Shown here piece after piece: positions 16,587-28,269 of a stretch of DNA of 64,000 nucleotides. The notes under the pieces are model-generated. The model saw only the letters and a program-made list of their open reading frames with translations, was not told the DNA's origin and did no database searches. The position numbers and the translations under genes are program-made. The DNA is taken from contig NC_014762.1 of assembly GCF_000183725.1 (NCBI RefSeq), positions 1,426,001 to 1,490,000 of the forward strand, in the 5' to 3' direction. Each line of letters opens with the position of its first letter. Position 1 is the first letter of the stretch. Origin of the DNA: Sulfuricurvum kujiense DSM 16994 (lineage in GTDB: Bacteria > Campylobacterota > Campylobacteria > Campylobacterales > Sulfurimonadaceae).

Positions 16587-17363
16587 CTATCCTATGCCGA
16601 ATAAAGTTTTTGCGTTTCGTGTCGTCAGTGATTCGATCGTTTCTCTGCTTAAACCCAGTAAATCACCCATCTTGTCCGCAACCAAACGGGTGTATGAAGG
16701 TTCATTCCGGCTCCCGCGGTGGGGGTGCGGGGTAAGGTAGGGACCGTCCGTTTCAATCAGCAGTTTTTCCTGAGGGATGCGGGGAAGAACATTGACCAGC
16801 TTTTTGGCATTTTGAAACGTAAGGACTCCGCCGATGCCGAAATAAAACCCCTCTTTGGAAAGAGACAAAAGCTCATCATCTGCGTTATAGCAGTGGAGCA
16901 CTCCGCCGACTTCCCCTGCCCCCTCTTCCAGCAATATCATTTTGGCATCATGGCTGGCATCGCGTATGTGGACGATGAGAGGCTTTTTGACCTTTTTGGC
17001 AAATCGGATATGAAAACGGAATACTTCATCTTGCCGACTCTTTTCCGCATGTTTCTCTTCATCGGAGCCTTCAAGTCTGAAATAATCCAAACCGCATTCT
17101 CCGATCGCCACACATTTCGGGTGGGCCGCATATTCTTCAAAATCAACCGATTCGATATGCTCCATATCATAAGGGTGAACGCCTATCGCAAAATAGACAT
17201 CGTTATAGTTTTCGCAAATCTCTACGGCTCTTTCCAAGGTTCCCGGATGTGCTCCGGGGATAATAAACGCTTCCACTCCCGCTTCGCGGGCACGTGCCAT
17301 CATAGCATCGAAATCCTCTCTGTAGCGTTCATCATCCAAATGGACATGGGTATCTATAATCAT
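16587..17363 (-). CDS. tatD: TatD-family metal-dependent DNase/hydrolase
   Basis: A 258-residue TIM-barrel hydrolase. Metal ligands are visible: the HxH of DTHVHLDD, the glutamate of GECGLDYF, the histidines of IVHIRDAS and HCYNAD, and the aspartate of ETDGPYLTP. TatD proteins act as 3'-5' exonucleases in DNA repair, while some relatives (YcfH, YjjV) have unclear substrates. It overlaps recN by 4 bases, which supports a repair-linked role here. Confidence 0.93.
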   Translation of the reverse strand: MIIDTHVHLDDERYREDFDAMMARAREAGVEAFIIPGAHPGTLERAVEICENYNDVYFAIGVHPYDMEHIESVDFEEYAAHPKCVAIGECGLDYFRLEGSDEEKHAEKSRQDEVFRFHIRFAKKVKKPLIVHIRDASHDAKMILLEEGAGEVGGVLHCYNADDELLSLSKEGFYFGIGGVLTFQNAKKLVNVLPRIPQEKLLIETDGPYLTPHPHRGSRNEPSYTRLVADKMGDLLGLSRETIESLTTRNAKTLFGIG

Positions 17364-18901
17364 GCTATTCCTCGGGAACGTTCAAATAAATCTCTGGCAA
17401 ATCCCAGGGCTTCCGCAGTGACACTTTCACCGCTGATGATACGGGCAATCTCCTCGATCCGCTCATTATCATTCAGTTCCCGCACACGGCTCTCATCCTC
17501 TTTGTAGATTAAAAAATGCTGCTGCCCCATCGAAGTGAGCTGAGGCTGATGGGAAATGACAAAAATCTGATAGCGAGATGAAAGATGACGCAATACCTTC
17601 GCAACGCTCATCGATTCCTCCCCGCTCAAATTGGCGTCGATCTCATCAAGCATCAATACTCCGCCGTTGCCTTTCATACTTTCAACGCCCATAGCCAATA
17701 ATGCCAAGCGCAGACGGTTAAACTCACCCGAACTCAATTTATCGAGTTTTGTCCCTTCTAAACCCAAAATCGCTTTATCACATCCTGTCGCACTTAAAGG
17801 GGAATCCTCAATCTCTAACGTTGCTTCGCGTAAATAAAGCATACCCAGATACGAATTTAATGAATTAACAGCTTCATTGAGAATAGCTTGTCGGTTTAAA
17901 GAGAGTATTTTGGCAGATTTGTCCAATGCACCTTTAAGAGATTCAATCTTTTTGACCAAATCATCTTTGGAGTGTTCAATCGTCTCATACGATTCAAGTT
18001 CCCGCATCTTCTGATCTCTGTAAAGCAATGCTTCTTCAACTCCCCCGTAACGGCGTTTAAGTTCTGAAATCTGTTCAATCCGATCAAGTACGGACTCGAT
18101 CGAAACCTCTTCAAGTTCATCGAGACGTTCAGAGGCACTCTCAAAAACGCTTCGCAGCTCATTCATCGCATCATCAAAAAAGGCACTGTCGGCTTCCAGC
18201 AGACCCAAAGCGGAGCTTACCGATGATTCATAAGAAAAAATTGCTTGTGCCGCAGATATAGCCGATTCTATTTTCTCTTTTTTGGAGAGCTGTTTTTTGA
18301 TTAAATTCAGCTCTTCATCTTCACCGATTCGAGGTTTTATAGCATCGATCTTGCCGATCTCAAATTGGGCAAACTCTTTGAGGTCAGATAAGTTTTTTTC
18401 TTGTTCTTCTATCGCTTTTAGCTGATCCGTGAGAGATTTGTACGCAGAGTAATTGTTTTTATGCTCGTCCAGAATTCTTAGATGATCAGGAGATTTGATT
18501 CCGATACGTGCATCGATAAGACTAAGCAGCGATGAGGGTTCAAAGTCACTGTAGTCTTTGAGACTTAAATGACGCAGATAGAGTGAGCTTATCGACTCCA
18601 TTGAACTTTTTGAAGTACTCTGGTTATTAATAAAATAGCGGGTCTTCTCTTTTTTGACATGGCGAAAAATATTCGTTGATTCATTTTGAATGCCGTAGAG
18701 TTCTTCATCGATATCCCAGGCAACGCTTGATTCGCAGATGTGCGCGTCGACGTTGTCCAATCCGACCGAAGCCAAAATAGAACGCATTAAAATCGATTTA
18801 CCGCTCCCGCTCGGTCCCGTAAAAACGACAAGCCCGGGATGAAACTCCAAATCCGCCTCTTTAAAGGTTAAAAATTCTTTTAAATAGAATCGCTCTATCA
18901 T
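17360..18901 (-). CDS. recN: DNA repair ATPase RecN
   Basis: A 513-residue SMC-like protein for double-strand break repair. Walker A is GPSGSGKSI near residue 30, a long coiled-coil region spans about 150-345, and the C-terminal half has the signature LSSGEFNRLRLAL, Walker B VLMLDEIDANLSG and an ISHQPQ switch. It is somewhat shorter than E. coli RecN (553), mainly in the coiled coil. It is the first gene of the long leftward operon ending at mrdA. Confidence 0.94.
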   Translation of the reverse strand: MIERFYLKEFLTFKEADLEFHPGLVVFTGPSGSGKSILMRSILASVGLDNVDAHICESSVAWDIDEELYGIQNESTNIFRHVKKEKTRYFINNQSTSKSSMESISSLYLRHLSLKDYSDFEPSSLLSLIDARIGIKSPDHLRILDEHKNNYSAYKSLTDQLKAIEEQEKNLSDLKEFAQFEIGKIDAIKPRIGEDEELNLIKKQLSKKEKIESAISAAQAIFSYESSVSSALGLLEADSAFFDDAMNELRSVFESASERLDELEEVSIESVLDRIEQISELKRRYGGVEEALLYRDQKMRELESYETIEHSKDDLVKKIESLKGALDKSAKILSLNRQAILNEAVNSLNSYLGMLYLREATLEIEDSPLSATGCDKAILGLEGTKLDKLSSGEFNRLRLALLAMGVESMKGNGGVLMLDEIDANLSGEESMSVAKVLRHLSSRYQIFVISHQPQLTSMGQQHFLIYKEDESRVRELNDNERIEEIARIISGESVTAEALGFARDLFERSRGIA

Positions 18902-19001: not shown

Positions 19002-19856
19002 TTAATTCCCCCACCCTAATTTCTCTTTTAGAACTTCAAAATAGTTAAACTCTTTTCGATGGATCAACTGCGCCGCGCCCGATGCAAGTTTGATATGAAC
19101 CGTATCGCTGTCACTGATTTCAACCAGATCCTGCCCGTCAACAATCACCAAAGCACTGGCATCGGGAGTTTTCATCTCAATTTCAAAATGTCCCGGCAGA
19201 ACAACGGGACGCTGTGTCAATGAATGGGGGCAGATAGGCGTCAGTGCAAAAACCTGTGTCAGAGGAAAAAGTACCGGTCCGCCGGCAGAAAGGTTATAGG
19301 CCGTAGAGCCGGTAGGAGTAGAGATTACGACACCGTCTCCGTAGTAGGTGTTAAAGCTTCGGCCGTCGACAAAAGTTTCCAAACGAATCATCTTCGCAAT
19401 GGAGGGACGGGTAAGGACGATATCGTTGAAAGCAAAGATTTCGCTTTGGCCGTTAGGGGATGTAATGGTAGCTTGCAAAACAGCCCGTTGATCGATGCGG
19501 TATTCACCTGCAAGCATCTTATCCACAAAAATTTCAAGCTCGGCAAAATCAAGATCGGCTAAAAAGCCGAGTTTACCCGCATGTATCCCTAATACGGGAA
19601 GCTGATAGCGGTATGAGCGGCGAACGGCGGAGATAAGGGTACCGTCACCGCCGATGGTAACCAGAAAGTCGCTGTTTTGACACAACATCTCAAACGGCTG
19701 CCCCATGACATCAATCATACCGCCGCTGATGTTATCGATGATGACTTCGATCCCGCGCGATTCGAATATCCGTTTCGCTTCAAAAAACATCTCTTTGAGT
19801 TCCGGAGTCGAGGGGCGAAGAAGCATTCCGACACGTTTAATATTAGTTAATTTCAA
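19002..19856 (-). CDS. nadK: NAD kinase
   Basis: A 284-residue ATP/polyphosphate-dependent kinase that makes NADP. The GGDGTLISAVR motif, the NDIVLTRPS block and the TPTGSTAYNLSAGGPV loop are all intact. The start codon appears to be TTG at 19854-19856, placed behind an AAGGGG ribosome-binding site; starting at the first ATG would remove part of the first strand. A TATAAT element at 19885-19890 gives a likely promoter of its own, although the gene also follows ppx on the same strand. Confidence 0.95.
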   Translation of the reverse strand: MKLTNIKRVGMLLRPSTPELKEMFFEAKRIFESRGIEVIIDNISGGMIDVMGQPFEMLCQNSDFLVTIGGDGTLISAVRRSYRYQLPVLGIHAGKLGFLADLDFAELEIFVDKMLAGEYRIDQRAVLQATITSPNGQSEIFAFNDIVLTRPSIAKMIRLETFVDGRSFNTYYGDGVVISTPTGSTAYNLSAGGPVLFPLTQVFALTPICPHSLTQRPVVLPGHFEIEMKTPDASALVIVDGQDLVEISDSDTVHIKLASGAAQLIHRKEFNYFEVLKEKLGWGN

Positions 19857-19916: not shown

Positions 19917-20798
19917 TTAGTGCAATTTGAAATATTCCAATGCGATGCCCTCACGCAATCCGTCATCAATGATTAGCGCTTCCTCATGCCCTGAAGCCTC
20001 ATAAATCGCCGTTACCATTAAGATTCCGGCCATAATGAGATTTTCTCGCCCGACGCCTACATAGCGCGTACGAGTTACTTCATCCATCGCTAAGAGTTCA
20101 TCATAAACGCGAAAACAATCTTCTAACCGCAAAAGGGTTCCGTTGATTTTGTCCGGATCATAATTCTGATAATCCATCCCGTTGAGATAAGCTGCGATGG
20201 TAGTCGGCGTACCGGCCGTGAGGACTAGCGTCTCAGCTATTTTCGTGCTGAGCGACTCGCTTACCTTGCACTTAAACTGAGAAATTTTTTCTTCCAATAG
20301 GTTTGAACCGATAGAACTCTCCGAGAGGGTAACAATCCCCATATTGATACTTTCCGATTGAACCGCCCCATTCTCGTAGCGTATCAGTTCGGTAGAACCG
20401 CCTCCGATATCGGCGAGAATAAACGATGAAGGTGTAATCCCCAGTTTGCTCAGGCGAATATGGACGGCATTCAGGGTAAGGGCGGCTTCTTTTTGCGCAT
20501 CGATGATGGCAAAAGAGATACCCGTTTCCTCTTTTATCCTTTGTAATACGGCTGTACTGTTGTTGGCGAGTCTCATCGCAGCCGTGGTATACCCCGCAAT
20601 GCTTTGTTCCGAAAGATCTATTTGTGTTCCTGCCTCATTAATAGCATCGATAATCCTATTGATTGCCTTTTCGCCGATGACTCCGGTTTCATAAAGCCCC
20701 TCGGCGGTACGCACGATCTTTTCAAAGCTTTTGCCCCATCTCTCTCCGTCAAATTCGATAAAACGGATTGTATTGGAACCTAGGTCTATCGCTACCAT
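19917..20798 (-). CDS. Ppx/GppA-family phosphatase
   Basis: A 293-residue member of the exopolyphosphatase/pppGpp phosphohydrolase family with the ASKHA fold. AIDLGSNTIRFIEFD (phosphate-1 loop) opens the protein and ADIGGGSTELI (phosphate-2 loop) lies near residue 145. Only the two-domain catalytic core is present; the C-terminal HD and extra domains of E. coli Ppx are missing, as in other Campylobacterota. Substrate choice (polyphosphate or pppGpp) cannot be read from sequence. It shares one base with the upstream propeller-solenoid gene. Confidence 0.88.
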   Translation of the reverse strand: MVAIDLGSNTIRFIEFDGERWGKSFEKIVRTAEGLYETGVIGEKAINRIIDAINEAGTQIDLSEQSIAGYTTAAMRLANNSTAVLQRIKEETGISFAIIDAQKEAALTLNAVHIRLSKLGITPSSFILADIGGGSTELIRYENGAVQSESINMGIVTLSESSIGSNLLEEKISQFKCKVSESLSTKIAETLVLTAGTPTTIAAYLNGMDYQNYDPDKINGTLLRLEDCFRVYDELLAMDEVTRTRYVGVGRENLIMAGILMVTAIYEASGHEEALIIDDGLREGIALEYFKLH

Positions 20799-22927
20799 TA
20801 AGCTATTACCGTAATATCATCAATCCGCATGGCGGGTGTCCACAACACGGATGGAGCTTGCTCGAATGTCTCAATATCCAGTGGCGATTCATACAGCAAT
20901 TTAAAATAATTATTTACGCTTCGAATCCCTTCGTCCAATCCGAATATGGAGATGTACTGACGAATACCGTATTCGATATTTTCCTGAGGAGCTTTGAACT
21001 GTATTTTTTGCTCCAGCTGTACACAATACGCTTGTGCCATTACCCCTCCCATCGCTCTAAATTTATCACGTATTCCGAAATAAGGTTCAAAAACCGCCAA
21101 AGTTTCCTGCACGCTTCCTGTCGAAGCGAATCGTTGCGCATTATCGGTAATAGCGTTCCATTGGCGCTCGATCAACTGAGCTTCCGGAAGCTCATACAGG
21201 AGCGGATAGGAACTGAGATAAGAAAACGCATTGGAGAGATCATTTGCGGCAATCGCCTGGAAAAAGAGATGTTTAATACGGATCGTATCGTCCATTTCCT
21301 GAGCCTCTTTGGCATAATCCGGAAAAGAGATCAGAATTTTGCATGCTTTGCGTACCGTCGCAAAGTCACCTTTCGCATATGCTTTTTGCGTCTGTATATA
21401 AAGAATATCCCCATATTCCATTGTCGATGCATACTCAGAAAATTCTTTCAAAAACGGGTACATTTTTATGAGTCCGAAAAACTTGACGTAATCGTTTTGA
21501 GAAAGGATCTTCTTCATGTACAAATACATTTTACGCTGTTCAAACAGCTGCTGTATCAGCATCGTTTTATCCGAAATACCGCGATAGGGAGCCAGTAACG
21601 CTCGTGCTTGTTCCTCCCCGTTCGGAGCTAAAATCAGCTCTTGCGCTTTGAAAAAAATCTTTTTCCATTGCAATTCCATCTTGCGATAGTGTTCCGACTC
21701 CTGAAACACGGGATATTGCTTGGCTAACGAATAGGCTAGAGGAAGACGTCCTATTTTAATGTAGTTTTGAAACATTCCGAATTTTTCATACGCACTGAGC
21801 ATCTGATTGATTACGGCCGTTTTTTTCGGAATTCCCATGAAAGGGGCAAATAGCTCTTTCGCATTTTCGGATTCATTTTCTTCCAGATACGCACGACCTT
21901 TTTCGATGGCGTACATCCAGCTTTTTTCAGCCAATTCATATGCTTTGGAATAAAGCAGCATCGGATTATCTTCAAGAGCGTCATAAAATGCTTTGTATTG
22001 CCCATCTAAAAGCATCTGCAAATATCCCTCTTCATCACCGAACAGCGAATAGACATAAACATTCCCCTTTAGGGTACCGATAGCCAAACGCTCAGGATTG
22101 TTCATGAAAGCGAGGGAGGATATTTCCTCGGATATTTTAATAAACCGTTTTGAAACCATCTCCGCCGTATGCAAATCATAAAGCGCCACATACCCCTGCT
22201 TCGTCCCGACAAAAAGGAAATGCTTATTTGAACTTACACAAACACAACTGACTTCATCCGCCAGTTTCGGGAGCCGTTTTATCAGCTTCCCGTCGCTCAT
22301 ATCCCATAATATTATTCCGCCGCTGCGATCGAGCGAAAGAAGTTTCGCTTCCGGCATAAATACAATTTCTTTGACCATATCGGCGTGTCCGCGCAGCCTC
22401 ATGGCCTCATTCATCGTCGCGATATTCAGTAAATTTATTGATTTGTCGTAGCTTCCGGTTGCGATCCATTGTCCGTCGTCGTTAAAGGTGACCGCACTGA
22501 CAAAGTCGGCATGAGGCGGAAGCGAAAACGCCAGACGGGAAGTTTTAAGAACCCAGGCAAACGACTTGCCGTCTTGGCCGGATGTGACAAAATACCGACC
22601 GTTCGGATCCATACCGACACTTTCGACTTCACCGTCATGAGAACCGACTTTATAAATTTGTTTTCGCTTGGATAAACTAAAAATGACGGCTTGATTTTTA
22701 TCCGTATCGGTCGAAACCATATATTCCCCGTCATGGGTCATATCGACATAACTGCTGAGATGCCGTCCATGGGTAATATTGGTTTTAAAGCCGTCAATAA
22801 CGACATAAAGCGACGTATCGATAATACGGAGAGTGTTTTGGGTGTCGACGATACCCAAATTTCCGGTGCTCAGCGTTTTAATAAAAAGAATGGGATCTTT
22901 AAAATTTAATGATTTTAAAACATCCAT
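20798..22927 (-). CDS. WD40 beta-propeller plus alpha-solenoid repeat protein
   Basis: A 709-residue cytoplasmic protein with no signal peptide. Residues 1-295 are WD40-like blades: recurring GxYDKSINLL, DRSGGIILWDM and TKQGYVALYDL strand ends about 40 residues apart. Residues 305-680 form four helical repeats of about 84 residues, each anchored by NP/YP + E: NPMLLYSKAYE (321), YPVFQESEHYR (405), YPFLKEFSEYA (490) and YPLLYELPEAQ (574). Three also carry an APYxGIxDKT-like turn (361, 446, 614). Such propeller-then-solenoid order is typical of coatomer-like scaffolds. The function is unknown. It shares a base with ppx/gppA and lies 11 bases after ilvA. Confidence 0.82.
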   Translation of the reverse strand: MDVLKSLNFKDPILFIKTLSTGNLGIVDTQNTLRIIDTSLYVVIDGFKTNITHGRHLSSYVDMTHDGEYMVSTDTDKNQAVIFSLSKRKQIYKVGSHDGEVESVGMDPNGRYFVTSGQDGKSFAWVLKTSRLAFSLPPHADFVSAVTFNDDGQWIATGSYDKSINLLNIATMNEAMRLRGHADMVKEIVFMPEAKLLSLDRSGGIILWDMSDGKLIKRLPKLADEVSCVCVSSNKHFLFVGTKQGYVALYDLHTAEMVSKRFIKISEEISSLAFMNNPERLAIGTLKGNVYVYSLFGDEEGYLQMLLDGQYKAFYDALEDNPMLLYSKAYELAEKSWMYAIEKGRAYLEENESENAKELFAPFMGIPKKTAVINQMLSAYEKFGMFQNYIKIGRLPLAYSLAKQYPVFQESEHYRKMELQWKKIFFKAQELILAPNGEEQARALLAPYRGISDKTMLIQQLFEQRKMYLYMKKILSQNDYVKFFGLIKMYPFLKEFSEYASTMEYGDILYIQTQKAYAKGDFATVRKACKILISFPDYAKEAQEMDDTIRIKHLFFQAIAANDLSNAFSYLSSYPLLYELPEAQLIERQWNAITDNAQRFASTGSVQETLAVFEPYFGIRDKFRAMGGVMAQAYCVQLEQKIQFKAPQENIEYGIRQYISIFGLDEGIRSVNNYFKLLYESPLDIETFEQAPSVLWTPAMRIDDITVIA

Positions 22928-22938
22928 ATCATTTCTTT

Positions 22939-24150
22939 TTAGTGCTCTTCGCTGCTGAGATAACGGTGTTCTTTGAGCAAAGCACGAATTTGGGACTGAT
23001 GTTCTGAGCCTTTTGTTTCCAAATGGATCATAACGTTGGCATCACCGTACGCCAAAGTTGTCGAAGTTCTATCGTATGCGATATGAACGATATTGGCATT
23101 TAAATCTTGCAGCATACGGGTCAGCTGCATCAATGCACCCGGCTTATCGATCAGCGTTACGGTCAGTTTCATCTTACGACCCGATTTGATCAGACCCTTT
23201 TCGATAATAACGGAGAGAAGCGTCACATCCATATTGCCGCCGCTGAGGACGACTCCCACTTTTTTATTACGGAAATGATCCAATTTATGATGCAGCAATG
23301 CGGCGACACCGACGGCCCCGGCCCCTTCAACCACAAGTTTTTGCTTCTCAAGAAGAAATAAAATCGCATTGGCGATCTCTTCATCATCGACACTGACAAA
23401 CTCATCTACCGTTTCAAGAATATGAGACAAGGTTATCGGAGACGTATCCCTCACAGCGATTCCGTCCGCAATCGTACGGACACTGGTACTGTCAATCGCC
23501 TGCTTAGCATCATACGATTCGCGCATTGCCGGTGCGCCTACCGCACCGACACCGACTACACGGATATGAGGGGCAAGTGCTTTGATCGCCGATGCCATAC
23601 CGGATATGAGTCCGCCGCCGCCGACAGGGATCACAATCGCATCCATGTCATTCATCGATTCGATCATTTCGATCGCAATGGTCCCCTGCCCCGCCATAAC
23701 CGCTTCATCGGCGAACGGATGAACGAACACCATTCCGTGCTCTTCCCCGTAACGAGCCGCGTATGCATAGGCTTCATCGTAATTGCTCCCCGCTAAAATA
23801 ACCTCCGCACCGTAATAGCTGACCCCGTTAATCTTCGTCAGCGGAGTCGACTCCGGCATGACGATAAGGGCACGTGTCCCAAATATTTGGGCCGCCATAG
23901 CAACACCCTGGGCATGATTTCCCGCACTGGCCGCGATGACTCCGCGAGAACGCTCTTCATCACTCAGCGATGCGATTTTATTGTAGGCACCCCTGATTTT
24001 AAAAGCACCGGTAACCTGGAGATTCTCTTTTTTCAGATAGACATTGCATCCCGATTCCTGACTAAGTCTCGGGGCATGGGCAAACGGTGTTTCTGTGATC
24101 ACATTTTTGATGCGTTCATGCGCTTCATATATTGTTTTTAAATCGATCAA
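22939..24150 (-). CDS. ilvA: threonine ammonia-lyase (threonine dehydratase)
   Basis: A 403-residue PLP enzyme that deaminates threonine to 2-oxobutyrate, the entry to isoleucine synthesis. The PLP lysine is in GAFKIRGAYNKI, and the glycine loop is VGGGGLISG. A C-terminal ACT domain (KLTVTLIDKPGALMQLTR onward) provides amino-acid feedback. The form with one ACT domain and about 400 residues is usual outside enterics. It sits 9 bases after the CoA-binding gene in a leftward operon. Confidence 0.94.
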   Translation of the reverse strand: MIDLKTIYEAHERIKNVITETPFAHAPRLSQESGCNVYLKKENLQVTGAFKIRGAYNKIASLSDEERSRGVIAASAGNHAQGVAMAAQIFGTRALIVMPESTPLTKINGVSYYGAEVILAGSNYDEAYAYAARYGEEHGMVFVHPFADEAVMAGQGTIAIEMIESMNDMDAIVIPVGGGGLISGMASAIKALAPHIRVVGVGAVGAPAMRESYDAKQAIDSTSVRTIADGIAVRDTSPITLSHILETVDEFVSVDDEEIANAILFLLEKQKLVVEGAGAVGVAALLHHKLDHFRNKKVGVVLSGGNMDVTLLSVIIEKGLIKSGRKMKLTVTLIDKPGALMQLTRMLQDLNANIVHIAYDRTSTTLAYGDANVMIHLETKGSEHQSQIRALLKEHRYLSSEEH

Positions 24151-24159
24151 GCTTTCCCT

Positions 24160-24591
24160 TTAAGAATGGAGGAGACGATGCTCGACCATACTGCAATGAT
24201 TTTGTACCACACGCATCCCCGCATTGCGGGCACGTTCGGCTGCTTCGTTGTTAACGATCCCTTTTTGGGCCCAAAATACTTTCACATCACCGCGGGCTAT
24301 ACACGCATCGGCGATTGCATCGAGCGCATCGGGTTTACGGAATATATTAACCATATCAACGGCAAATGGGATTTCCGCAAGAGAACGGAACACTTTTTCT
24401 CCCAGTATCGTCTCTTCCTTCGGATAAACGGGAATAATCGTATATCCGGCATTTTTAAGATATTCCGCTACGCGGTAGCTGTCTTTGCTCGAATCGGGAG
24501 AGAGCCCTAATACCGCAATTGTTTTGACTCCTTCCAAAATAGTTTTAATTTCGGTATTCGTTGCATTGACCGTGGGGAATTCGCATTCCAT
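24160..24591 (-). CDS. CoA-binding domain protein (YccU family)
   Basis: A 143-residue Rossmann-fold protein. IAVLGLSPDSSKDSYRVA followed by GYTIIPVYPKEETILGEKVF is the signature of the YccU/CoA_binding_2 family, which shares its fold with the CoA-binding half of succinyl-CoA synthetase alpha. Members bind CoA or a related nucleotide; no reaction is established. It is the first gene of the leftward operon with ilvA and diverges from the multi-PAS kinase. Confidence 0.88.
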   Translation of the reverse strand: MECEFPTVNATNTEIKTILEGVKTIAVLGLSPDSSKDSYRVAEYLKNAGYTIIPVYPKEETILGEKVFRSLAEIPFAVDMVNIFRKPDALDAIADACIARGDVKVFWAQKGIVNNEAAERARNAGMRVVQNHCSMVEHRLLHS

Positions 24592-24792
24592 AAAAGGCTC
24601 CTAAAAAAGGTAAATATCACTTATTATACCAAATTTACCGACACAACTTCATATTTCAGATAGTGATTTATCCGACTTGATTCATTTCATTTAGTATAAA
24701 TTAACATTTTAAGGTAAAGGCAAGAGCGTCTGCAATAAAATCGTTGCTCTACAGCAAACGGATACTCTGTAAGAAATCAACGGGAATATTTG

Positions 24793-27700
24793 ATGAATAT
24801 TTTTCAAAATGGGCGCAAAGAGATACATTTTGTATTGATTATTTTTATTCTTATCGCCGTTCTTATCATTGGTTCCAAAATCAATACCCTGCATCAGATC
24901 GGTGTCATGAAGAAGGATACAAAAGAGATTTTTGAGTTTCCTTTTCAAATCTCCAACGCAGCCCTGATCGTGCAATCGGAAGTATACAAAATGCACCGCG
25001 ATATGAAGGATATCGTTCTCTCCGTATCCGATGAGGAGTTGGAGAGAAAAATCAACGAAGTCAACACTCACGAACGCCATGTCTATGACTACTTATCGGT
25101 TGTTCGAGAAAAGGTGAGAGATGAAAAAGGAAAACAGCTCGAAAGGCAAACTCGTGAGCTGTCTCGTGCATGGAAACCGATCCGGGACGAAGTGGTCGAA
25201 TTGGTCAGAGGGGGTCACCGCGCCGAAGCGATTGCCATTACCAAAGGCAAAGGGGCTAAACAAGTCTTAGAGTTGGAACATTCGACGTCAGCCCTCTATC
25301 AATATGCCAACAATGAAGCCCATCGTTTTAAAAACCATTCCAATGCCATGCATTCGCAATACTATCTCATCAGCCTTGTCAACGGCGCGGCAGTATTGCT
25401 CCTTTTGTTTATAATCGCCTATTTCACCCTAAACAGACTCTCTCGCTATATCTCAAAAAGCAGCCATCTGACCGATGTATTGTCCGTTATCCGCAATGTC
25501 AATCAGCTCATTGTCCGAGAGAAGGATGTCCCTAAACTCATTCAAGAGATATGCGACATTCTTATCGCCAACCGTGTCTACAGCAATGCGTGGATTATCC
25601 TCTACGATCAAGGACAAAAAGCCAACTATATTGCCAGTACCGATACATCCGAAAATTTCACCGCAATCAAAAATAAAATGGATGGTGGATGGATTCCCCC
25701 CTGCGTCCACAGTGAAACCGACCGGAGCAAAGGATATCTCATCATCGAGAGTACCAAAGAGAGTTGTCCCCAATGCCCTTTTGCCGATATGTACGAGAAC
25801 AAAGGGGCGTTTAGTATCCAGATCAAACACAACGATAAACTCTACGGTAATCTGACCCTCTCTGTGAATGCGGCCTATCTCAAAGATGACGAGGAACTTT
25901 CGCTCTTGCAGGAAGTCGCAAGCGATATAGCGTATGCACTGTATAATCTGGAAACGGAAGAGCACCTCAAAACCAGAGAGTGCTCTCTTTATCATACCAA
26001 AGAGCTCTACGAAAATATCATCGACAGCGTCGACAACATCATTTTCGTCAAAGATACTGACTTTACATATACCGTCTGCAATCAGGCATTCGAAAAATTC
26101 GTCGGAAAATCTAACGATGAAATCGTCGGTAAAACCGACTACGAGCTGTTTGACAAAGAGGTCGCCGATTTTTTCCGTGAACATGACACGATCATGCTCG
26201 CGGAAAAAAGGGCAAAAGCCAATTTTGAGTGGGTTACCTATCCCGATGGCCGTAAGGTCTACCTTTTCACCGTCAAATCCCCTCTGATCAATGCAGAGGG
26301 AGAGCTACTCGGTCTCGTCGGCAACTCTGCGGATTTAACGGAACAGAAAAATACCGAAGATGCGCTCAAAGAGAGCGAAGAGCGTTTTACTCTGATGATG
26401 CGCCAATCCCCTTCCGTCATCGAGCTGTATGACCTTGAAGGGACACAAATCGAAGTCAATCGTGCCTACGAAGAGCTTTGGGGCTTTCCTGCCGAACAAA
26501 CGCTTCACACGTTCAATCTGTTCAAAAGTACTGAAGTTGAAAAAACAGGATTGCTCCCCTATATTCAACGTGCTTACAACGGCGAAATCGTGCAGATTCC
26601 TCCTTACAAGTACGATCCGACAGGACCGACCGAAGCATCAGGATTGGGACGAAAACGGTGGTTAAAAACCCGCATATACCCGCTCAAAGAGAGTTCAGGC
26701 GCCGTCAAAAATATCGTTATCACCCACGAGGATGTAACCGAAGAGATTACCTCGAAAAACGCCTTGCGAAAAAGTCAGGAAAACTATCAGCTGTTAACCG
26801 AAAATGCCCTCGATATGATCTGGAAAATGGATATGGAACTCACCTTTACCTATGTCAATCCGACCGTCAAAGCATTGTTAGGATACGAGATAGAAGAGTT
26901 TATCGGTACCAAGCTGAATCACCATTTTTCGCCTGAAGAGTTTAAAAAAGCCCACGAAATCATATCCGAAATAGTACGTACGAACTCTGAAGAGGGGGCA
27001 TCGCTAGAGATCGCCATGTATAAAAAAGACGGCACTACAGTACCGCTGGAAGTCAACGGCAAATTGATCTTTGACGAAAACCATACACCGATCGGCTTTC
27101 AAGGCTCGGCACGAGACTTCACAGCACAAACCGAAGCACGAAAAAAACTGAACGAACTCCTCGCCGCACTCGAAATAAAATCCAAAGAGTTGCAAACGAT
27201 TCTTCAAGAGGCTCCCAATCCCATTATGCTCCACAACGAAAATGGAGAAGTGGTCATGGTCAATCGTGTTTGGCAGTCTCTCAGCGGGTATACGTATGAT
27301 GAGATCAATACCGTAGATAAATGGGCGGAGCTGGCTTGTTCCAAAAACAAACCGTTAATGAATCAGTATATGGATTCGATATATTCTCTGGAACATAAAA
27401 TAGATATGGGAGAAGCTTCGGTAAATACAAAAGACGGAAATACCCTTATCTGGCAGTTCAGCTCGGCTCCGCTAGGGATTATCGACGGCAAACGTACCAT
27501 CGTCACTACGGCTATGGACATTACCGAGCTGAAAAAGAAAGATGAAATGATGATGGCACAGTCCCGTCATGCCGCGATGGGTGAAATGATCGGAATGATC
27601 GCGCATCAATGGAGACAGCCTATTGCAAGCATTGCGATGGATGCGAATAATATGCTGCTTGATATAGCCTTTGAAACGTTTGATAATACCTCGGCAGCAG

Positions 27701-28269
27701 AATATACCCAGGATATTTTAGATCAAACCAATCACTTATCCAAAACCATCGATGATTTTAGAAACTTTTTCAAACCGGACAAATCGGTTTCAGCCGTCAA
27801 CCTTGAAAGTATTTTTGAAGAGACGCTTGCCATAGTCAAAGAGAGCCTTGCAAGCCATTCGATAGCTCTTAAAACATCATATCTGTCAAATACGCTTGTC
27901 AATGCTTTTCCTCGCGAGCTGATGCAGGTGTTTGTGAATATTATCAATAATGCCAAAGACTCATTAGTGTCCAATCATATCCAGAACGCTCTGATAGAAA
28001 TCAAAGTTTATGATGAAGAGAAGTATGTCTGTGCTGAAATATGCGATAACGGGGGAGGCATTGATACGACGATTATGCCCAAAATATTTGATCCTTATTT
28101 CTCGACAAAAGATGAAAAAACAGGAACCGGGCTGGGGCTGTATATGTCTAAAATGATTATCGAAGAACATCTTCACGGTTTTATTGATGCTTCAAACAAT
28201 AAAGACGGCGGGGCATGTTTTACAATACGGTTATTGAAAAATCATGAGACCGACCATCAAGAAATTTAA
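24793..28269 (+). CDS. membrane sensor histidine kinase with 4HB, GAF and four PAS domains
   Basis: A 1158-residue hybrid-input kinase. Order: TM1 (about 10-30), a periplasmic four-helix-bundle sensor (45-190), TM2 (195-215), a GAF domain with a CPQCPF motif (230-390), four PAS domains (about 405-525, 535-665, 675-800, 805-925), HisKA with the phospho-histidine in MIAHQWRQPI, and HATPase_c (NIINNAKDS N-box, CDNGGGID G1, GTGLGLYMSK G2). All catalytic motifs are intact. The ATG at 24793 is preferred to the TTG just before. The HD-GYP regulator follows 17 bases downstream and is its obvious partner. Confidence 0.94.
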   Translation: MNIFQNGRKEIHFVLIIFILIAVLIIGSKINTLHQIGVMKKDTKEIFEFPFQISNAALIVQSEVYKMHRDMKDIVLSVSDEELERKINEVNTHERHVYDYLSVVREKVRDEKGKQLERQTRELSRAWKPIRDEVVELVRGGHRAEAIAITKGKGAKQVLELEHSTSALYQYANNEAHRFKNHSNAMHSQYYLISLVNGAAVLLLLFIIAYFTLNRLSRYISKSSHLTDVLSVIRNVNQLIVREKDVPKLIQEICDILIANRVYSNAWIILYDQGQKANYIASTDTSENFTAIKNKMDGGWIPPCVHSETDRSKGYLIIESTKESCPQCPFADMYENKGAFSIQIKHNDKLYGNLTLSVNAAYLKDDEELSLLQEVASDIAYALYNLETEEHLKTRECSLYHTKELYENIIDSVDNIIFVKDTDFTYTVCNQAFEKFVGKSNDEIVGKTDYELFDKEVADFFREHDTIMLAEKRAKANFEWVTYPDGRKVYLFTVKSPLINAEGELLGLVGNSADLTEQKNTEDALKESEERFTLMMRQSPSVIELYDLEGTQIEVNRAYEELWGFPAEQTLHTFNLFKSTEVEKTGLLPYIQRAYNGEIVQIPPYKYDPTGPTEASGLGRKRWLKTRIYPLKESSGAVKNIVITHEDVTEEITSKNALRKSQENYQLLTENALDMIWKMDMELTFTYVNPTVKALLGYEIEEFIGTKLNHHFSPEEFKKAHEIISEIVRTNSEEGASLEIAMYKKDGTTVPLEVNGKLIFDENHTPIGFQGSARDFTAQTEARKKLNELLAALEIKSKELQTILQEAPNPIMLHNENGEVVMVNRVWQSLSGYTYDEINTVDKWAELACSKNKPLMNQYMDSIYSLEHKIDMGEASVNTKDGNTLIWQFSSAPLGIIDGKRTIVTTAMDITELKKKDEMMMAQSRHAAMGEMIGMIAHQWRQPIASIAMDANNMLLDIAFETFDNTSAAEYTQDILDQTNHLSKTIDDFRNFFKPDKSVSAVNLESIFEETLAIVKESLASHSIALKTSYLSNTLVNAFPRELMQVFVNIINNAKDSLVSNHIQNALIEIKVYDEEKYVCAEICDNGGGIDTTIMPKIFDPYFSTKDEKTGTGLGLYMSKMIIEEHLHGFIDASNNKDGGACFTIRLLKNHETDHQEI

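Follow-up and report, generated by a model that had tools for sequence, protein, structure and literature searches.

The gene considered here encodes a protein of 709 residues in Sulfuricurvum kujiense DSM 16994 (Campylobacterota), and was analysed as part of a stretch of 64,000 nucleotides (contig NC_014762.1, positions 1,426,001 to 1,490,000), referred to throughout as the window; coordinates are those of the window except where a locus label precedes them. The protein is predicted to consist of a WD40 β-propeller followed by a helical solenoid. The setting given in the original prediction, a Campylobacterota genome (Sulfuricurvum) with ilvA, ppx and nadK alongside, is borne out by annotation, and the features of the locus are as follows.

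24160 to 24591, minus strand: CoA-binding domain protein, a conserved neighbour (Pfam PF13380)
22939 to 24150, minus strand: ilvA, threonine ammonia-lyase, 11 nt upstream of the propeller–solenoid coding sequence and conserved (NCBIfam TIGR01127, synteny)
20798 to 22927, minus strand: coding sequence for the WD40 propeller plus helical solenoid, 709 residues, ATG start
22046 to 22921, minus strand: seven-bladed WD40 β-propeller, residues 3–294, 28 strands (Pfam WD40, AlphaFold2 model, VIA Z about 33 against LIS1 and Gβ)
20894 to 22033, minus strand: helical solenoid, residues 299–678 (AlphaFold2 models of the full length and of the C-terminus alone)
21752 to 22003, minus strand: solenoid repeat 1, residues 309–392, anchor NP at 321 (profile self-comparison, as for the next three)
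21497 to 21751, minus strand: solenoid repeat 2, residues 393–477, anchor YP at 405
21245 to 21496, minus strand: solenoid repeat 3, residues 478–561, anchor YP at 490
20993 to 21244, minus strand: solenoid repeat 4, residues 562–645, anchor YP at 574
19917 to 20798, minus strand: Ppx/GppA phosphatase, overlapping the end of the coding sequence by 1 nt, a neighbour in part of the clade only (Pfam PF02541)
19002 to 19856, minus strand: NAD kinase, a neighbour in the closest Sulfuricurvum only (domain search, synteny)

Some minor features of the region may be mentioned at this point. Two antisense open reading frames, of 276 residues (20768–21598, plus strand) and 262 residues (16719–17507, plus strand), resemble shadow frames of the coding strand. 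An open reading frame of 1159 residues resembling a multi-PAS histidine kinase (24790–28269, plus strand) diverges from the CoA-binding gene, and two close relatives (L061, L063) also have one of this kind in the vicinity of the locus. The window gene is duplicated in tandem in two close Sulfuricurvum relatives (L061:7837-12130 and L062:3061-7360).

Architecture and the 84-residue repeat

The full-length AlphaFold2 model, calculated from an alignment of 79 rows (the protein itself and related sequences), has a mean pLDDT of 91.9 and a pTM of 0.84. It places 28 strands, arranged as seven blades of four, in residues 3–294, while residues 299–678 are modelled exclusively as helices; when the C-terminal part was modelled separately these helices were nearly unchanged (pLDDT 91.4, pTM 0.60). 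A propeller of about 295 residues and then an α-solenoid had been proposed from the sequence, with modelling as the suggested check, and it is this arrangement that the model returns; neither a second propeller nor a globular C-terminus, the two outcomes named beforehand as contrary, is found in it. The N-terminal part matches Pfam WD40 with an E-value of 3.6e-20, placing it among the WD40 propellers, and further Pfam matches (THOC3, WDR3, Prp19 and others) were set aside as reflecting only the common WD40 fold. In the C-terminal half the Pfam search matched no family, and no transmembrane stretch was found in the 709 residues. A role in a defence system was considered and rejected, as the single PADLOC match, to a large HEAT/ARM-type model, spans only propeller residues 37–199; no case of the solenoid being carried on a plasmid was found.

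A letter-by-letter check places the repeat anchors at N321-P322, Y405-P406, Y490-P491 and Y574-P575, so that the positions and the spacings of 84, 85 and 84 residues are exactly those originally predicted. Profile self-comparison over residues 300–700, using 79 orthologs, likewise recovers the 84-residue unit for which a repeat-detection check had been suggested: the top lags are 169, 84, 85 and 42, and the highest lag score is 10.2, as against a maximum of 6.3 across 2000 block shuffles. The observation of a propeller plus a repeat is well above chance. Units 1 and 2 share 21 identical residues out of 85, and units 2 and 4 share 23 out of 78. Because the lag of 42 also scores highly, each 84-residue unit may correspond to two helical hairpins. 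Periods of 84 and about 170 are present in three further subfamilies as well.

Likeness to coats, TPR proteins and other propellers

As regards the propeller, the closest structures (LIS1, Gβ, WDR5 and the prokaryotic PkwA, 5yzv) are likewise seven-bladed WD40 domains, with a VIA Z of about 33 over some 287 residues at 15–21% identity, whereas in the window protein the propeller is fused to a C-terminal repeat solenoid that belongs to no Pfam family. With TPR and TPR-like solenoids such as P58IPK, SPINDLY and kinesin light chain the protein has stacked helix pairs in common, and a profile match likens residues 35–62 of the unit to a TPR-like hairpin. However, the unit is of 84 residues and probably comprises two hairpins, compared with 34 residues for a TPR, and there is no significant match over the full length; the protein is not a TPR protein by family assignment (the C-terminal half matches nothing in Pfam) or by period (42 and 84, not 34). 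The repeat unit does give a profile match in the PDB to the TPRs of kinesin light chain at an E-value of 3e-14, but since no single stretch is separately significant this is taken as a weak resemblance to TPRs.

The comparison with membrane coats calls for more care. An N-terminal propeller followed by a C-terminal solenoid was found, among the proteomes screened in PMC2799638, only in eukaryotes and PVC bacteria, and the argument had been made that eukaryotic coats and PVC bacteria alone have this order. In the AlphaFold2 model of the window protein an N-terminal propeller leads directly into a C-terminal α-solenoid of stacked helix pairs, as in the PVC membrane-coat-like proteins and the eukaryotic coats, so that the predicted layout is coat-like; coat identity finds no support beyond the domain order. 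Taken alone, the solenoid is not matched significantly by Foldseek (best E-value 0.19, mostly generic TPR-like solenoids) or, by sequence, in the PDB, and its VIA Z is below 8 throughout, bearing in mind that absence from a match list does not prove non-membership. Because the solenoid has no significant PDB match by sequence or by fold, the domain order is all that is held in common with coats, and coat membership was rejected as an assignment. The original prediction had called the order a hallmark of coatomer, clathrin-adaptor and IFT scaffolds: as a description of domain order this stands, but the kinship it implied is not supported by the Foldseek and VIA values or by the Pfam search.

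That the protein might be a membrane-coat or vesicle scaffold, a bacterial relative or analogue of coatomer, clathrin or IFT subunits, is nevertheless an explanation with something to be said for it: besides the identical domain order and the PVC precedent (PMC2799638), IFT-A chains are among the nearest, insignificant matches of the solenoid, and TPR_IFT121 and RIC1 were matched in one ortholog with E-values of 0.018 and 0.026. However, the solenoid matches no solved coat significantly, there is no membrane segment, and the protein is shorter than the known coat proteins, with one propeller and just four units of a regular 84 residues. Moreover, some Campylobacterota members are linked to sensor genes (see below) rather than to internal membranes, and this linkage points to signalling. 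We regard a coat function as very improbable.

Neighbours of the window copy

A full copy is present at 77 related loci, 4 of which start too near a contig end for the upstream gene to be assessed; ilvA lies directly upstream in all 73 of the remainder, and the CoA-binding gene precedes ilvA in 66 of the 77. In Sulfurimonas, Sulfuricurvum and Hydrogenimonas the linkage to ilvA is strong, but it is not universal, because the clade members in one family (f16) adjoin polA- and mobA-like genes, not ilvA. In one genus (g26) the ortholog is found elsewhere on the chromosome, and there ppx follows ilvA; ilvA is also present without the propeller–solenoid gene in other members of the phylum. In several genomes from which the gene is absent at this site (G003, G006 and others) ilvA runs directly into ppx at a distance of about 0 to 40 nt, and it follows that the propeller–solenoid gene has been cleanly inserted or lost.

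These observations bear most directly on the idea that the protein is a scaffold or regulator specific to this operon, which would bind IlvA, the CoA-binding protein or both, and tune threonine deamination. The unbroken association with ilvA at the 73 loci, where the CoA-binding gene usually comes ahead of ilvA, would fit such a role, and gaps of a few nucleotides suggest co-expression. However, the relatives beside polA- and mobA-like genes, the displaced ortholog of genus g26, the occurrence of ilvA without the gene and the location of other subfamilies in unrelated operons (dprA, ispG) all count against it, and we consider it unlikely, though not far-fetched.

The link to Ppx is weaker than that to ilvA: ppx is the downstream neighbour at 27 of the 77 loci. 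The suggestion originally made, of a response to nucleotide or stringent signals, thus loses its footing, the constant neighbours being ilvA and the CoA-binding gene; a role of this kind acting through Ppx was rejected, the adjacency being partial and ppx following ilvA even where the gene is missing.

The wider family and its sensor genes

A family of about 710 residues is present across much of Campylobacterota, and the window protein, with its propeller and a solenoid of 84-residue period at about that length, belongs to it. Among the matches listed, most open reading frames are of about 690–750 residues. The genome of S. kujiense itself holds five copies, namely the window protein and four diverged paralogs at 19–24% identity. 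In a tree of 74 members the window protein groups with orthologs from other Campylobacterota families; the clades located next to dprA, methyltransferase and recJ-like genes are separate and well defined, and an ispG-linked group is likewise separate. The family is apparently undescribed, none of the titles and abstracts found in a literature search naming it; PMC5587647 counts WD40 proteins by phylum, but Campylobacter, Epsilon and TPR do not occur in its text.

When some 60 paralogous loci were examined, a large group of paralogs was found to lie directly 3′ of sensor genes, with gaps of −25 to +75 nt, and sensor neighbours were found for about 16 distant family members. The sensors are of varied types (receiver proteins, receiver-PAS, PAS-PAS, and a membrane sensor with a Tll0287-like region), and they have in common a C-terminus of about 110–140 residues that is PAS-like and carries the motif IPxPSxIID...N..F...DWK. 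A profile built from the other groups still detects this domain in each held-out group (E-values of 3e-9 to 8e-27), while no other open reading frame of the sensor loci matches it even at an E-value of 10. No kinase or MCP output domain was found by Pfam in the partner sensors. The input PAS domain of one sensor has its closest matches in MmoS, Aer and NifL, proteins that bind FAD and report redox state. The resemblance to these three lies in the input domain of the paralogs' partner sensor; the partner sensors differ in ending in the common PAS-like domain, beside a propeller–solenoid gene.

An unbiased scan that covered 298 genomes of the phylum, with a strong match to the PAS-like domain defined as one of at least 50 bits, gave 22 strong sites, and all but one adjoin a family member or a copy of the domain that does. 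The exception (G338) has two adjacent domain copies, beyond which the contig stops after some 130 bp, and a family fragment at the edge of another contig. Weaker matches (about 20–45 bits), mostly without an adjacent family member, may be ordinary PAS domains. Since the profile was built from neighbours of the family, recall is biased toward family-adjacent cases. The sensor domain is entirely absent from many genomes that have an ilvA-linked copy. In the tree, sensor-linked members fall in the opposite half from the window clade, except for the long-branched L171, the root being weakly supported.

The domain is found twice in S. kujiense, adjoining a family paralog each time (L003, L004):

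L251:5706-7250: sensor ending in the common PAS-like domain, beside a propeller–solenoid paralog (L251:3526-5655)
L252:4329-5135: sensor with the same end, likewise beside a propeller–solenoid paralog

One of these sensors has a Tll0287-like region and the other is a receiver protein beside a histidine kinase. A further sensor/adaptor pair is encoded at L169:7086-8375 and L169:4957-7110. The paralog L003 (L252:5146-7247) is frameshifted into open reading frames of 530 and 150 residues, and may be a pseudogene or reflect a sequence error; a similar split is seen in G278 (L254:3010-5159), where the family member adjoining a strong domain copy is in two open reading frames.

The pairing of several of its relatives with sensors makes a signal relay likelier than membrane coating for the protein. 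It also bears on the proposal that the protein is a general factor for assembly or quality control (of ribosomes or a large enzyme complex, for instance), like many eukaryotic WD40 and TPR proteins, with its neighbours incidental. The nearest propeller matches are indeed generic WD40 scaffolds, neighbours differ between subfamilies, and the operon stays intact where the gene is absent; but so strict a linkage to one sensor domain would be unexpected of a generic factor, and the family's distribution is patchy, with a match in 101 of the 298 genomes. We would call this proposal decidedly unlikely.

The reading that we prefer, tentatively and with slightly less than even confidence, is that the protein is a soluble cytoplasmic adaptor or scaffold of a sensor-linked family, the window copy being a docking scaffold with another partner. 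Its propeller and its four-unit, TPR-like solenoid would provide two interaction platforms, going by the model. In the sensor-linked branches the varied inputs (receiver, FAD-type PAS, haem-type) would sense a signal, the common PAS-like end would act as an output domain docking on the propeller–solenoid protein, and the latter would relay the signal through the binding or release of a client. We infer docking and the adaptor role from the observed architecture, repeat, family and gene linkage, gene adjacency itself being a sign of linkage and not of binding. No sensor gene with the common PAS-like domain was found beside the window copy, which sits in the CoA-binding–ilvA operon, and its partner is for this reason taken to be a different one; the copy might work in the same docking-scaffold mode, with a partner that could conceivably be encoded in its own operon.

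More broadly, and with greater doubt, one may envisage a Campylobacterota signalling module in which sensors of varied input (phosphoreceiver, redox-type PAS, c-haem type) would act through a dedicated PAS-like output domain on a cognate, eukaryote-like propeller–solenoid adaptor, the ilvA-linked protein of the window representing a branch of the adaptor that has a different partner. No description of a comparable sensor/adaptor mechanism was found in the literature searched. The family provides sensor/adaptor pairs that lend themselves to testing, since their input domains are swapped and their output domain is a single conserved one. In addition, a widespread Campylobacterota family that has the coat-like order and is apparently tied to sensors implies that this order cannot by itself be taken as the marker of a coat.

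Two further arrangements within the family may be recorded. In one family of the phylum (f14) the paralog lies between a divergent polysaccharide deacetylase gene and dprA, in an order conserved at L160-L164, L174, L176, L191, L200 and L201, and in most of these loci minD is two genes upstream. Another subfamily is found near or next to ispG (GcpE), at L166, L167, L172, L173, L202, L205, L210, L213 and L217; in L172, L173, L210 and L217 hypA also adjoins the paralog.
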